Positions 13,874 to 18,362 of a DNA stretch of 43,835 nucleotides are shown piece by piece. The stretch is from Crenothrix polyspora. GTDB taxonomy: Bacteria; Pseudomonadota; Gammaproteobacteria; Methylococcales; Methylomonadaceae. The DNA is taken from positions 1 to 43,835 of the forward strand of contig CAMDWT010000009.1 in NCBI GenBank assembly GCA_945877505.1, given 5' to 3'. The stretch's first letter is position 1; the number at the start of each line of letters is the position of its first letter. The notes under the pieces are model-generated. The model searched no databases and was not told where the DNA came from. It saw nothing but the letters and a program-made list of their open reading frames with translations. A program made the position numbers and the translations under genes.

Positions 13874-13928
13874 GAACCAGCGGATTATTCCACTGGTTCT
13901 AATGGTAACCCACTATTATTGGGTTACC
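13874..13928. terminator. Two tandem hairpins after the UPF0182 gene
   Basis: GAACCAGCGG (13874-13883) pairs with CCACTGGTTC (13890-13899) with one mismatch. GGTAACCCA (13904-13912) pairs perfectly with TGGGTTACC (13920-13928) and overlaps the UPF0182 stop codon. Lying between UPF0182 and the GT2 gene on the minus strand, they probably terminate or attenuate transcription entering the GT2 unit. No long U tract is present. Confidence 0.5.
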
Positions 13929-16558
13929 GTCGATTGAGGAGTTTCTATGCCATTACTGTCACGAGAGTTCTTGATGAAAACCTGCTTTAAACGATTAAAA
14001 GCTGACCATAATGTTGTATCCATAATCGTCTCGTCACCAATTGAAACTATAATTCGAGTTAATTGGGGCATTTTATCTTTGGTTGAAGCTATATAAATGG
14101 GTTGTACATAAAGAACGGTATTACCCATTGGAAGAATAATCATGCGGCCCATTTCAACAGAGGATCCACTTTGGCCCCATAAGGTAAATTGTGCTGATAT
14201 TTCAGGTTCTTGCTGAGTTAATGCTTCAATTTGAGCGGGACCATTAACTTGAATATCTTTACCAAATTTGTAAACGGTAATGCCGGGCTTGTAGTTTTGT
14301 CCACAAGTAGTTTTATCCATTGTACCCGCAACACCGATCATACTGAGATTGGTTCTATTAACAGGTGTCATGGGTTCAATTAAAACAAATTCTTCGGTAT
14401 CGTTACAATTACCGAAATCCATAGTTTGATAATACGGCTGTACTGGTTCACCACGAACATTCGCTTGAGCCCAAGTTTCAGCTTGTTCATAAAATAATTC
14501 AGGACTTTGTTGATGATATTTGGCGTACACTTTCATCTGAAGATAATACATATCTCGCGGGTAGCGTAAATGCTCTTTTAACTCTGCAGGCATAGTATCA
14601 AGATTTTTAAATAATCCTGGGTATGCCTTGTTATAGGCTTGAATAATGGCATCAGAGGGGTCTGAGATATAAAAATCGACATCACCATCATAGGCGTCAA
14701 CAACAATTTTTACTGAATTACGGATGTAGTTAAAATCCTTCTTGCCATCTAAAAAATCATCAGCGGCAGGTTTAGAAACGGGATATTTATTTGATAAAGT
14801 GTAAGCATCTAAAATCCAGTAGAACCTATCTTTATTGATAACGAGGTAAGGGTCTTTATCAAGGTGCAGAAAAGGCGCTAATTTAGTTATACGTTCAGTG
14901 ATGTTTCTGTGTATTTTGACTTTACTTTCTGTAGAAATATTTGTAGAAAAAAATATTTTTTCATCTTTAAAGTAAATTGAAAATAAAGCTTTTCTGAATA
15001 GTGATGGAATAGGAATTCCACCTTCACCATGATAGCTGAGCGTTACACTAGGATCAGAGCCTGCAATATCTTCTATCTTGAGTTTATTAGGTACTACAGC
15101 ATAATCGTATTGGCCTTGGCCATAATAGATGTCTGGATTTTTGACTTGAAAACCAACATCCGAATTCATACTTAAATCACGTAAATACCATGTTAAAGGT
15201 TTACCAGCATCTTGTGCCGCAGGTGTAACGACAGCGCCGTAACCATGCGTATAACGTAAATGGATATTCTCCCAGTTTTGAGCTTCAGGGGGTAATTTTG
15301 AGGTATTAACTTCTCTGGCAGCTAGATTAACCTGTCGTTTGTGATCAAGGATGAAATAACGATCTTCATCAACTGACCTTATTTTATAATAAGGCCTTAT
15401 TTCCTGTAGTTGCTTGTAGCTGTCGACAATGTATTCTCTGTCCCATACTGGAATGTTTTCAAAGCGTTTTTGAGTTCCCCAAGTAGCAATGTCTTGTGTC
15501 GCATTTAGCTTAATTGAGAGGTCAACTGTATTGATATTGTTTAAATCATAAGCATTTAGCGTCGCATCAATATTTTGTTGAATAAAAGATTTGTTCGTCT
15601 CAACGGGGTTGGGACTGACTATATATTTTTGTAGGGTATTTGGTATAAATTGTAAATTTGGTAAGCCTATGGCGCAGAGGAAAATAATAAAACTGATTAA
15701 AAAGGGAACTTTTATTCGATGTTTCTCTGAAAAAATGAATAAGCCGGCTGATAGGGCAGTTGCCAAAAAACTGATAATAGCAAGCCAAATGAGTGGTAAT
15801 TGATACCACATTTCAACAAATCCAGGCCCATAAAATATAGGCTCATTACTATCTGTATAAAGCAGGCTGAAACGATTCAGCATGAATCCCCAAACGATAA
15901 AAGCAACCACAAAACCAATTAGAATAGTGAGATGTGCTTTGGCGGCTAAAGGGTATTCTTTTTTTTGATTAGGTATAAAAAAATGTTCTAGCCAATAAAG
16001 AATACCCACTGAAGTAAAAATAAGAATGGCGGCTATTAGGAGTTCTTTCTGAATTAACAGGTAGATAGGATAAGACAGCATATAAAAGCTAACGTCATTC
16101 CCATAAACAGTTTCAGTTACACCGGAATCACGGCCAAAAAAGTACAGTAATGAGGTTTCCCATTGATTATAGAAAGGTATGGCGACAAATATGGCAAGCG
16201 CTAAAGAAAGGGGGGTGTATATTTTTGCTGAGCCATTCATGTATACATCAGCAAAGCGTTGATATCGTTTGCGTTTGTCTAAATCATCTAGGATTTCATT
16301 AGGTGGATTCAAGCCCAGATAACGGGACGCTATCCAGAAATGAAAAAAGAAGATAGAAAAGAACGCTAGGGTTACACCACCGGAAATAAAAAATTTATAC
16401 AGCAGTCTAAGCCAGAAGTATGATTCAAGTTTTAATGATTGATACCACCACAAATCAACAAATAGATCGAGAAATATGTAATGAAAGGTGATAAATATAA
16501 TGATGGCGATGACAACTGTCGCCCCAATTATCGCGGGTAAAAACTTCAATTTCCGCAT
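13916..16558 (-). CDS. UPF0182 family large membrane protein
   Basis: The 880-residue protein has about seven hydrophobic segments in its first 310 residues, followed by a large hydrophilic domain of about 560 residues probably outside the membrane. Conserved family stretches are visible: RPYYKIRSVDEDRYFI, LRYTHGYGAVVTPAA, the GGIPIPSLFRKALFSI region, and PYLVINKDRFYWILDAYT. Length and layout match UPF0182 proteins, which are common in actinobacteria, cyanobacteria and some proteobacteria and have no known function. It has a 460-base gap upstream and tandem hairpins downstream, so it is probably a single-gene transcript. Confidence 0.93.
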   Translation of the reverse strand: MRKLKFLPAIIGATVVIAIIIFITFHYIFLDLFVDLWWYQSLKLESYFWLRLLYKFFISGGVTLAFFSIFFFHFWIASRYLGLNPPNEILDDLDKRKRYQRFADVYMNGSAKIYTPLSLALAIFVAIPFYNQWETSLLYFFGRDSGVTETVYGNDVSFYMLSYPIYLLIQKELLIAAILIFTSVGILYWLEHFFIPNQKKEYPLAAKAHLTILIGFVVAFIVWGFMLNRFSLLYTDSNEPIFYGPGFVEMWYQLPLIWLAIISFLATALSAGLFIFSEKHRIKVPFLISFIIFLCAIGLPNLQFIPNTLQKYIVSPNPVETNKSFIQQNIDATLNAYDLNNINTVDLSIKLNATQDIATWGTQKRFENIPVWDREYIVDSYKQLQEIRPYYKIRSVDEDRYFILDHKRQVNLAAREVNTSKLPPEAQNWENIHLRYTHGYGAVVTPAAQDAGKPLTWYLRDLSMNSDVGFQVKNPDIYYGQGQYDYAVVPNKLKIEDIAGSDPSVTLSYHGEGGIPIPSLFRKALFSIYFKDEKIFFSTNISTESKVKIHRNITERITKLAPFLHLDKDPYLVINKDRFYWILDAYTLSNKYPVSKPAADDFLDGKKDFNYIRNSVKIVVDAYDGDVDFYISDPSDAIIQAYNKAYPGLFKNLDTMPAELKEHLRYPRDMYYLQMKVYAKYHQQSPELFYEQAETWAQANVRGEPVQPYYQTMDFGNCNDTEEFVLIEPMTPVNRTNLSMIGVAGTMDKTTCGQNYKPGITVYKFGKDIQVNGPAQIEALTQQEPEISAQFTLWGQSGSSVEMGRMIILPMGNTVLYVQPIYIASTKDKMPQLTRIIVSIGDETIMDTTLWSAFNRLKQVFIKNSRDSNGIETPQSTVTQ

Positions 16559-16775
16559 AGCGTCCTCAATATAAATAGTTTTGTTAATAATGTTGCGCTT
16601 GTCTTCATTGTTTTTAGCAATAGTTAACTAATACAGCCAATATTCTGGATTGTATTCTAACACCCAATAGTCAGTTAGTAATGATTAAGACGTTTTGCAG
16701 TTGAGACTAGTTAGCATTAGATGATTTTAAAGGGTACCTCTTATTTAAATTTCTTAACGCGTTGTTAATGCCTAT

Positions 16776-16787
16776 TGTTCCGAAACA
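16776..16787 (+). promoter_or_regulatory. Possible enhancer-binding-protein site
   Basis: TGTTCCGAAACA matches its own reverse complement at 10 of 12 positions and lies about 120-130 bases upstream of the -24/-12 element, the usual position for the upstream site of a sigma-54 activator. The activator cannot be named from this site. Confidence 0.3.
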
Positions 16788-16812
16788 GAAAATAATGCAC
16801 TAAATTGAGGCA

Positions 16813-16899
16813 ATGTCGGAGTTAATTTGTTTAAAAATGGGGCAAAAATTAGTGAGGTGTTTGGCTGCTGTTTTTGTGTGCTTATGGATTAGGGGGTAA
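16813..16899 (+). CDS. Possible 28-residue hydrophobic peptide
   Basis: An ATG at 16813, with GAGG two bases upstream of it, opens 28 codons ending in TAA at 16899. The product starts MSELICLKMGQK and has a hydrophobic core LAAVFVCLWI that could cross a membrane. The ribosome binding site is too close to the start to be ideal, and a frame this short can occur by chance, so this is only a candidate. Confidence 0.2.
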   Translation: MSELICLKMGQKLVRCLAAVFVCLWIRG

Positions 16900-16907
16900 T
16901 GAATAGT

Positions 16908-16923
16908 TGGCATGGTAAATGCT
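16908..16923 (+). promoter_or_regulatory. Sigma-54 (RpoN) -24/-12 promoter
   Basis: TGGCATGGTAAATGCT matches the published TGGCAYR-N4-TTGCW consensus at every defined position except one (A for the first T of TTGC). The invariant GG and GC are ten bases apart. Predicted transcription start is near 16934 on the plus strand. No plus-strand protein gene follows before 19786; a terminator follows at 16968. Confidence 0.55.
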
Positions 16924-16933
16924 TTTAATATTG

Positions 16934-17000
16934 TAAGCGTTTGACCTCTCCTGTGTGACGCCTCTAAAAGGCACTTATCCCATTAAGTGCCTTCTTTTTT
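16934..17000 (+). ncRNA. Candidate sigma-54-dependent small RNA with anti-Shine-Dalgarno loop
   Basis: Transcription from the RpoN-type promoter at 16908-16923 to the U tract at 16995-17000 would give an RNA of about 67 nt. A first short stem, GCGTT (16937-16941) with GACGC (16957-16961), would expose ACCTCTCC (16944-16951), complementary to Shine-Dalgarno sequences. A second CCTCT follows in the linker, and then the terminator hairpin. This is the layout of Hfq-type regulatory RNAs that block ribosome binding. No open frame fits in it. I know no named RNA family with this sequence; promoter, loop and terminator are seen directly, function is inferred. Confidence 0.4.
16968..17000. terminator. 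Intrinsic terminator, bidirectional
   Basis: AAGGCACTTA (16968-16977) and TAAGTGCCTT (16984-16993) form a perfect 10-base stem with a 6-base loop, followed on the plus strand by a T tract to 17000 and on the minus strand by a shorter one. On the minus strand it lies just past the rmuC stop. On the plus strand it would end the small RNA candidate. Confidence 0.8.
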
Positions 17001-17018
17001 AGCTTTAGCCTTAAGCAG

Positions 17019-18362
17019 TTAGTTATTCAAGTCTAGGCCTGAAGGGTCATCAGTTTCTATGCCTGCTAGGGAATTGATATGTTTAGGCATTGATTTCTTA
17101 ACTTTGACACCTAATTCTACAAAACTATTAGCCTGTCGAATTAAGTTGCCTTGGCCATGAGTTAGCTTATTCATAACATCATCATAAGTTGTGTGCGCTG
17201 TACTTAACTGTTTGCCAAGTTTATCTAATTCTTCTACAAAACCGCGTATTTTGTCATAAACAATGCCAGCTTTATCAGCAATCGCTTTGGCATTTTCGTT
17301 CTGGCGCTCGTAGCGCCAAATATTTTCGATAGTGCGCAACGTGGCCAATAAGGTCGTTGGGGTTACGACGATAATTTTATGTTCAAAGGCGTCGGTAAAT
17401 AAACGTTCATCAGCCTGAAAAGCTGTTATAAAAGCGGCTTCTATAGGCATAAATAACAATACAAAATCTAATGATCGTAAGCCTTTTAGACTGGAGTAAT
17501 CTTTGGTGCTTAGGTCTTTTATGTGTGAACGTACCGCTTCAGTATGTTGTTTTAAGGCCGTTAAACGCTCAATCTCATTATCTGTTGAGCAGTGTAATTC
17601 ATAAGCGACCAACGATACTTTTGAATCAATAATAATGTCTTTGTCTTCAGGCAAGCGGACAATTACATCAGGCTTGAACAGTTTATTGGCTTCGTCACGG
17701 AATGCACCTTGAGTTTCGTATTCTATGCCCTTTCGTAAACCTGACTTTTCTAACACCGTTTCTAGAATCATTTCACCCCAGTTGCCTTGGGTTTTTTTAT
17801 CGCCTTTTAATGCGCGCGTGAGGTTAAGTGCTTCCTGATTCATTTGCGCGGTGACACGGCTTAAGGAAACGATTTCAGCGCGTAGGGAACTACGATCTTT
17901 ATTTTCGTTATCATAAACTGTTTCTATACGCCGTTTAAATTCGCCTAATTGTTCACGTAACGGATTAACAATATGGTCAAGACTGGTTTTATTGTGCTCA
18001 GTAAACTGTCGGCTACGCTCATCAAAAATTTTACCCGCTAAATTTTCAAATTGATTGTTAAGTCTAAGTTCCGCATCTTTCAATAAGTTTAATTTTTCTT
18101 CAGCATGTTTTATCTGCTCAGTCATGCGTGTTTGCAATTCGACATTTTTTGTTTTGGTTTCTAGGTAGAGTTGCTGTAATTGATTGAATTCAATTTCCTT
18201 ATTTTGAGAATGTCTTAACTTTTCTTCTGAGACAGCGAGATTAGATGAAAGTAGTGTAATAGTGGTTTTATCGTGGTTATTGAGTAGGCGCATGATTATT
18301 GCGCCGACTAATAAGCCTAAAAAACCACTTAGTAAAGGAGATAAGTTATTAATAAAATCCAT
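17019..18362 (-). CDS. rmuC: DNA recombination protein RmuC
   Basis: The 447-residue protein has an N-terminal hydrophobic anchor (about 8-25), a long coiled coil to about residue 110, and a RmuC domain of the PD-(D/E)XK nuclease superfamily over roughly 150-400. The domain motifs KGDKKTQGNWGEMILE, FKPDVIVRLPEDKDIIIDSKVSL and the ENIWRYERQNENAK stretch are all present; the D-x-K pair in IIIDSKVS is the likely catalytic lysine region. RmuC limits recombination at inverted repeats and has been linked to stalled-fork and phage responses. It starts 12 bases after the hemL stop and is co-transcribed with it; the terminator at 16968-17000 ends the unit. Confidence 0.95.
   Translation of the reverse strand: MDFINNLSPLLSGFLGLLVGAIIMRLLNNHDKTTITLLSSNLAVSEEKLRHSQNKEIEFNQLQQLYLETKTKNVELQTRMTEQIKHAEEKLNLLKDAELRLNNQFENLAGKIFDERSRQFTEHNKTSLDHIVNPLREQLGEFKRRIETVYDNENKDRSSLRAEIVSLSRVTAQMNQEALNLTRALKGDKKTQGNWGEMILETVLEKSGLRKGIEYETQGAFRDEANKLFKPDVIVRLPEDKDIIIDSKVSLVAYELHCSTDNEIERLTALKQHTEAVRSHIKDLSTKDYSSLKGLRSLDFVLLFMPIEAAFITAFQADERLFTDAFEHKIIVVTPTTLLATLRTIENIWRYERQNENAKAIADKAGIVYDKIRGFVEELDKLGKQLSTAHTTYDDVMNKLTHGQGNLIRQANSFVELGVKVKKSMPKHINSLAGIETDDPSGLDLNN

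Follow-up and report, generated by a model that had tools for sequence, protein, structure and literature searches.

The window analysed here is a 43,835-nucleotide stretch of DNA, contig C9 of a 2.46 Mb assembly (G000). Between the genes for a UPF0182 membrane protein and for RmuC, both on the minus strand, it carries a gap (16559–17018) that is overlapped by six ORFs of 21–37 amino acids each and in which, in agreement with an earlier note on this DNA that saw no protein gene here, no ORF of at least 80 amino acids is found. On the plus strand the gap holds, in this order, two NtrC-type sites, a sigma-54 promoter, the stretch ACCUCUCCUGUGUG and a strong terminator (Table 1), the last, a stem with its T tract, being the intrinsic terminator that had been proposed to close an RNA of about 67 nt. 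The rmuC gene of the window is closest, among named records, to those of Methylobacter and other Methylococcaceae/Methylococcales.

Table 1. Positions of the features in and around the intergenic gap
Feature	Position	Strand	Basis
UPF0182 membrane protein gene, divergent neighbour	13916..16558	-	Pfam UPF0182, 4.2e-234
Palindrome TGTTCCGAAACA	16776..16787	+	Element of the earlier note; not conserved, outside the sRNA unit
NtrC-type site 1, TGCACTAAATTGAGGCA	16796..16812	+	10/12 defined positions of GCACYANNNTGGTGC; alignment A3
NtrC-type site 2 (weak), TGTTTAAAAATGGGGCA	16828..16844	+	32 bp after site 1; alignment A3
Sigma-54 promoter (-24/-12), TTGGCATGGTAAATGC	16907..16922	+	GG-N10-GC spacing exact; TGGCAY-N6-TGC kept across loci
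Predicted sRNA, ~67 nt	16934..17001	+	Start placed by inference 12 nt past the -12 GC; R1 and R2 matches; fold z
Seed, ACCUCUCCUGUGUG	16944..16957	+	Complementary to Shine-Dalgarno sequences
Intrinsic terminator stem-loop	16968..16993	+	T tract to about 17001
rmuC, convergent neighbour	17019..18362	-	Pfam RmuC, 1.5e-104

A blastn search with 16840–17010 as the query gave matches in 24 relatives of the same genus (E 1.7e-21 to 5.6e-3), 17 of which begin at query positions 66–68, position 68 being the first base of the promoter, and nearly all of which stop at the terminator. In the alignments the promoter, CTCTCCTGTGTG and the terminator are kept while the remainder drifts. Two models were used for wider searches, R1 built from the transcript alone and R2 with the promoter included; the training sets of both contain the window's own sequence among others, and within the window R1 matches 16930–16998 and R2 16907–16999. 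The sRNA unit, comprising sigma-54 promoter, ~67-nt RNA and terminator (16907–17001), is present with diverged flanks in 32 of the 35 genus genomes, each matching R1 at 7.3e-10 or better, with G023 and G028 giving no match and G022 a weak one at best (none with R1). This conservation across genomes makes the unit more than a chance arrangement. The refuting case named in the earlier note, a terminator conserved without promoter and loop, does not hold, promoter, anti-Shine-Dalgarno (anti-SD) segment and terminator being conserved together. At E ≤ 0.05, R1 matches 104 of 237 family genomes, many of the weak matches covering the terminator only, and R2 at E ≤ 0.01 matches 108 of 311 order genomes, among which a single weak match (G086, E 0.004) lies outside the family. 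Applied to 47 named rmuC records, R2 finds the unit in eight; nothing in the 3 kb around the rmuC of Ca. Methylobacter oryzae, Ca. M. favarea, M. luteus and M. marinus (L043, L044, L049, L054) matches R2 at E ≤ 0.01, and the unit is therefore not always beside rmuC, or is absent from these four isolates. In genomes of g12, which we take to be probably Methylomonas, a conserved GTTGCGTTATATTTCTTCCTATTGC plus terminator matches R1 (L181–L184, L186, L187, L193 and, similarly, L188) and has no sigma-54 promoter; this element is perhaps another RNA.

The exact GG-N10-GC spacing reported for the RpoN promoter is borne out, as is the assignment itself by conservation; the single mismatch counted in the earlier note becomes two differing positions when TTGGCATGGTAAATGC is compared with the fuller sigma-54 consensus, TGGCACG-N4-TTGC. 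The pattern TGGCAY-N6-TGC occurs five times in the window against 0.98 expected, a number reached in none of 100 shuffles, and such a pattern in one sequence would by itself be modest evidence. It is found in all 25 blastn loci (window included), even where the blastn match began 3' of the promoter, and in all five further genus loci retrieved with the promoter-free model R1, that is, in 30/30 genus loci examined. Twenty loci outside the genus were fetched, chosen from the full-length R1 matches and not strictly by E-value order; ten of these, from genera labelled g23, g24, g18, g27 and g42, have the pattern 6–31 bases upstream, and the ten without it were left out of the sRNA set, with G035 (g2) joining the outside-genus loci later. 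The invariance of the promoter in alignment A4 is partly selection, because the A4 loci were chosen with that very pattern. The alternative of a housekeeping promoter in this position (TTGGCA-16-TATTGT, 9/12) was considered and dropped, the sigma-54 positions being kept in every blastn locus. Proteins with a sigma-54 activator domain, NtrC included, are encoded in the window's own genome, and the promoter at 16907–16922 would be served by RpoN.

NtrC and NtrB are encoded beside the own genome's glnK-amtB (TIGR01818 for NtrC, 731.7 bits against a cutoff of 558.6), and this operon serves as an internal control, with sigma-54 promoter TTGGCACAATCTATGC and, upstream of it, similar NtrC-type sites GCACCATGATAGGTCATG and TGCTCTACTATGGTGCA. 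The consensus GCACYANNNTGGTGC, of E. coli type and derived from E. coli glnA, was scored against the 185 bases 5' of the promoter in 40 loci (G017 and G015 left out). The best score averages 9.4 out of 12 against 7.46 for shuffled sequences, the top of 200 shuffled means being 7.78. Individually, a site reaches p ≤ 0.05 in 24 of these loci and is absent at that threshold in 16, most clearly in G026, G060, G109 and the G051 copy at C21. The best match lies 110–124 bases 5' of the -24 element in 31/40 loci, window included, and in many relatives the second-best follows 31–43 bases past the first. Site 2 (alignment A3 consensus TGCTTAAnAATGGAGCA) scores poorly in the window and rests there on the alignment, because scoring put another place second. 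The likely enhancer is thus site 1 with site 2 as its weaker partner; both lie at enhancer distance, as would be expected of a member of the NtrC regulon, their binding by NtrC being predicted from resemblance to the consensus. The palindrome upstream exists as described earlier, but its proposed role as the enhancer was dropped, the aligned relatives showing by eye no counterpart. Of the two inputs that had been suggested to act through RpoN, nitrogen or carbon, the NtrC sites and the glnK-amtB control point to nitrogen, via NtrC.

For the predicted 68-nt RNA the calculated folding energy is −19.2 kcal/mol (z = −4.95 against shuffles), a stability mainly owed to the U-rich terminator. In the consensus fold the terminator is the one conserved hairpin of the transcript and no other pairs are present; four of its nine pairs keep pairing with both sides changed, which none of 500 shuffles reaches. 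A conserved 5' hairpin holding ACCTCTCC (16944–16951) in its loop, as put forward in the earlier note, was dropped, because the consensus fold leaves this segment single-stranded; the anti-SD segment as such is present and conserved, with changes in some genus genomes and sister genera. Across 25 genus loci TCTCCTGT is at least 90% conserved, and in most genus loci the conserved unpaired part is CUCUCCUGUGU, complementary to Shine-Dalgarno sequences, within a segment that reads UCUCCUGUGU followed by UGUUGCC or a variant. The seed is altered in G002, G019, G025 and G030. In G002 (L178) and G030 (L176) it reads CUCUCCGUCGUC. In g18, g42 and g2 the segment is about CUC(A/C)UCGUGUGUUGUACC, and some sister genera have an altered anti-SD core, CUCAUCGUGUG. 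Judged by base complementarity, the property common to these segments is the predicted ability to pair with Shine-Dalgarno sequences; it is most marked in the genus, and g18 shows it less strongly. The CU-rich core has a median unpaired value of 0.81 in the predicted folds and a value of at least 0.5 in 72/79 loci, figures that depend on a list of core motifs of our own choosing and on rough transcript ends.

The unit has siblings whose promoters follow a similar plan. Of the further R2 matches, 40 were fetched and looked at individually; weak ones among the rest may be chance. Many siblings form a second class (TTGGCAY..TGC ... GCTCTCTCCTGGGC ... GGTACC) with a different terminator, present as extra copies in the genus (G003, G004, G005, G013, G018, G020, G031) and in other genera, and G051 and G208 each have a second class I copy. 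Among the 40, L483 is without the TGGCA element and L504 without the CU core. Many siblings again show NtrC-type sites at about -109 and -77, the mean best score over the 40 being 8.75 against 7.45 shuffled (top shuffled mean 7.8), with 13/40 individually at p ≤ 0.05. CTCCT is found in 56 of 81 loci (7.1 expected) and TCCTG in 55 of 81 (9.3 expected), counts raised by the presence of that core in the search models themselves. The window's own genome gives a single R2 match at E ≤ 0.01. In G106, G107 and G047 (L484–L486) two sibling units lie a few hundred bases apart, and among the second-class sigma-54 units L505, L506, L481, L482, L488, L491 and L508 most show GCTCTCTCCTGGGC and NtrC-type sites.

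In 28/30 genus loci the sRNA unit faces a convergent rmuC or hemL, and in 14/30 the UPF0182 gene is divergent from it (within the fetched stretches). Outside the genus, the unit lies upstream of and on the same strand as a CP-ATP-grasp gene in nine of the 11 class I loci examined (G109, G056, G144, G143, G148, G146, G051, G208 and G035, with G214 and G060 as exceptions), the distance from promoter to ATP-grasp start being about 100–370 bases, or 909 in G109, where another ORF intervenes. The operon genes found encode ATP-grasp and alpha-E proteins, joined in one locus by a zinc-ribbon/peptidase protein; the ATP-grasp domain is Pfam-confirmed in two of the outside-genus loci, with alpha-E behind it in one, and assigned by sequence likeness in the others. 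We call this operon Anbu-type by likeness, there being no Anbu finding here. Published accounts of the Anbu operon describe such ATP-grasp and alpha-E genes together with transglutaminase and Anbu, and report Anbu to be up under nitrogen limitation (PMC5666114, PMC6376114), as in nitrogen-limited Pseudomonas putida (PMC5666114, citing Hervas 2008). In the genus the ATP-grasp gene stands elsewhere (own genome G000:C44, L437), not beside the sRNA unit, with its own sigma-54 promoter (TGGCAY-N6-TGC) 49–63 bases before the start in 24/24 genomes (L422–L445), at which we found no such RNA, nor room for one, in any of these 24; the gene may therefore itself be nitrogen-regulated.

The arrangement in the nine outside-genus loci would suit a cis-acting leader, now or by origin, with the sigma-54 promoter serving the downstream operon and the short RNA being its attenuated 5' end. 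We hold this to be improbable: the genes that follow in the window are on the opposite strand, leaving nothing to serve, and the genus ATP-grasp gene has a sigma-54 promoter of its own, yet the RNA keeps its seed elsewhere. The sibling copies moreover have several different neighbours (22 of the 40 looked at), and no complementarity between the seed and the operon start is seen by eye. That RNA and operon are apart in the genus, each with a sigma-54 promoter, favours a gene acting in trans, and the presence of the same unit in differing contexts argues for an independent gene.

Candidate targets of such a gene were sought with the patterns CACAGGAG or ACAGGAGA before ATG, in seven genus genomes each. 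Recurrent starts are those of pntA, pntAb, a glnB-type P-II gene, a 2Fe-2S ferredoxin gene, TerD, GvpA/GvpN, folP and fhcC (formylmethanofuran dehydrogenase subunit C, TIGR03122), NCBIfam confirming pntA and fhcC and the other names being our reading of the sequences. Duplexes between seed and start region were counted when better than 95% of 200 shuffled seeds. By this measure the pattern-chosen starts pass in 4/5 cases for fhcC, 5/5 for glnB, 2/2 for gvpA, 2/3 for fdx, 1/3 for terD and 1/3 for pntAb, all scored only where the seed complement is present and with other P-II loci left out; gap, chosen for its own-genome site, passes in 14/26 and pntA, chosen for sites in some genomes, in 8/24. 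Genes not chosen by pattern pass in 0/10 (hemL), 0/14 (UPF0182), 1/14 (rmuC) and 5/30 (ATP-grasp) cases. When 106 starts of the own genome are ranked, some of them from loci fetched for matching the seed, gap comes first, fhcC second and an amtB-like gene third, the gap duplex being the strongest at −27.1 kcal/mol and weaker in other genomes. The target prediction with the seed that the earlier note had called for yields recurrent starts but was for the most part unfruitful, and fhcC, glnB, gap and pntA are candidate leads only, since any GGAGA start scores well; candidates picked by complementarity are a biased set. Among five sister-genus genomes with an altered seed no orthologous group of compensating targets was seen, and the pntA leader stays unaltered where the sister-genus anti-SD core changes. 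In most genus genomes seen, the leader of pntA is strikingly conserved, reading about TATGCCCTAAATCACACCCACAGGAGACTGTATG (L240–L263). A block resembling a promoter, about TTGTATGTTGATNGATAATTCACTATNATG, is very well conserved upstream of the glnB-like P-II gene (L132, L134, L136, L138, L140, L142, L145, L146, L148, L361), where our script found no sigma-54 element.

From sequence and comparison, the intergenic gap most likely holds the gene for a regulatory RNA of methanotrophs, roughly 70 nt long and switched on when nitrogen is short. That a conserved small-RNA gene under NtrC/sigma-54 control exists here appears very probable. We have good, if lesser, confidence that its product is a trans-acting nitrogen-starvation sRNA that would block the Shine-Dalgarno regions of certain mRNAs, and repression via Shine-Dalgarno pairing appears likely. 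Thus, scarcity of fixed nitrogen would lead NtrB to phosphorylate NtrC, which would bind sites 1 and 2 and drive RNA polymerase–sigma-54 from the promoter, giving a 67-nt RNA that stops at the strong terminator. The unpaired CUCUCCUGUGU segment of this RNA would base-pair with (A)CACAGGAGA(G)-type Shine-Dalgarno regions of certain mRNAs and keep ribosomes from binding, with Hfq probably on the U-rich tail.

Alternatively, CUCUCCUGUGUGUUGCC in the same NtrC/sigma-54 sRNA could be a seed that recognises a single mRNA or a small specific set, whether at ribosome-binding sites or elsewhere, instead of a general anti-SD element. The siblings, however, share a CUCC(U)G core, the sole exact CACACAGGAGA in the own genome is the sRNA gene itself, and the seven-genome pattern searches showed no long seed complement common to orthologues, so that we regard this alternative as rather doubtful, even with most of the 17-nt stretch kept in many genus loci beyond the anti-SD core and UGUGUUG common to sister genera whose anti-SD part changed. 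Far less probable is that only the terminator matters, as the bidirectional end of rmuC, with the promoter a chance occurrence: the stem does match the minus strand too, beside the rmuC stop, and TGGCAY-N6-TGC is expected about once per window, but promoter, NtrC sites and seed are conserved alongside it, even where rmuC is not a neighbour, and already contradict this view. To a short mRNA encoding a tiny protein we give next to no credence, there being no plus-strand ORF of at least 20 amino acids within the predicted transcript.

Returning to a trans-acting nitrogen-starvation sRNA, a broader reading can be offered as speculation, which we consider rather unlikely to hold as a whole. Family-wide sibling sRNAs of methanotrophs, with their own NtrC/sigma-54 promoters and a shared anti-SD core, might act as a nitrogen brake on the translation of C1-oxidation and carbon genes (leads fhcC, gap and glnB). 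The unit might likewise be bound up with the Anbu-type CP-ATP-grasp/alpha-E operon, preceding it in sister genera and standing separate from it in Methylobacter-like genomes, each with a sigma-54 promoter. Methane oxidisers are said to be strongly affected by nitrogen supply. If the reading as a nitrogen-starvation sRNA is right, NtrC would be tied directly to post-transcriptional control in methanotrophs, a covariance model would be at hand for annotating their genomes, and a regulatory RNA would be linked to a poorly understood operon type (Anbu, with ATP-grasp and alpha-E as usual partners).

That the RNA has no known name, as the earlier note supposed, agrees with Rfam, which gave no family at cutoff in the window or in the loci of nine relatives and only chance-level matches below cutoff in 16700–17100 (E 0.52 and 3.3). 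Literature searches, judged by titles and abstract openings, returned no nitrogen-regulated sRNA and no such RNA described for methanotrophs. The RNA thus most likely belongs to a family without a description in Rfam or in the literature searched. A relationship to NcS25 of Burkholderia was considered and dropped, this RNA being described as unchanged under nitrogen depletion and as having no sigma-54 motif. Closest in regulation is NrsZ of Pseudomonas, an intergenic sRNA induced under nitrogen limitation via NtrB/C and RpoN, about 226 nt long, processed, located next to ntrC and activating rhlA translation (PMC8395346). Both are intergenic with an NtrC/sigma-54 plan, and the window RNA differs from NrsZ in its ~67 nt, its place away from ntrC and its conserved anti-SD core. 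Closest in pairing logic is NfeR1/alpha-r14 of alphaproteobacteria, a nitrogen-stress sRNA with unpaired anti-SD motifs, reported to silence the ntrBC mRNA around the start of ntrB; alpha-r14 carries CCUCCUCCC in each of its three hairpins, and NfeR1 is activated by LsrB and repressed by NtrC (PMC10746234). In place of three hairpins with unpaired CCUCCUCCC, the window RNA has one conserved hairpin and one anti-SD segment, CUCUCCUG, and, unlike NfeR1, an activator-type NtrC/sigma-54 promoter. Closest in purpose is GlnZ of enterobacteria, an sRNA under NtrC control that links carbon flow to nitrogen status through base-pairing; its processing out of the glnA 3'UTR involves Hfq and RNase E (PMC9731577). 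The window RNA differs from GlnZ in having its own promoter. The Qrr sRNAs of Vibrio also comprise several siblings, which are transcribed from separate sigma-54 promoters under a two-component activator and act in quorum sensing through LuxO as longer RNAs with a different seed. The window RNA family resembles them in its siblings, each with a sigma-54 promoter, and is unlike them in being shorter and carrying another seed.
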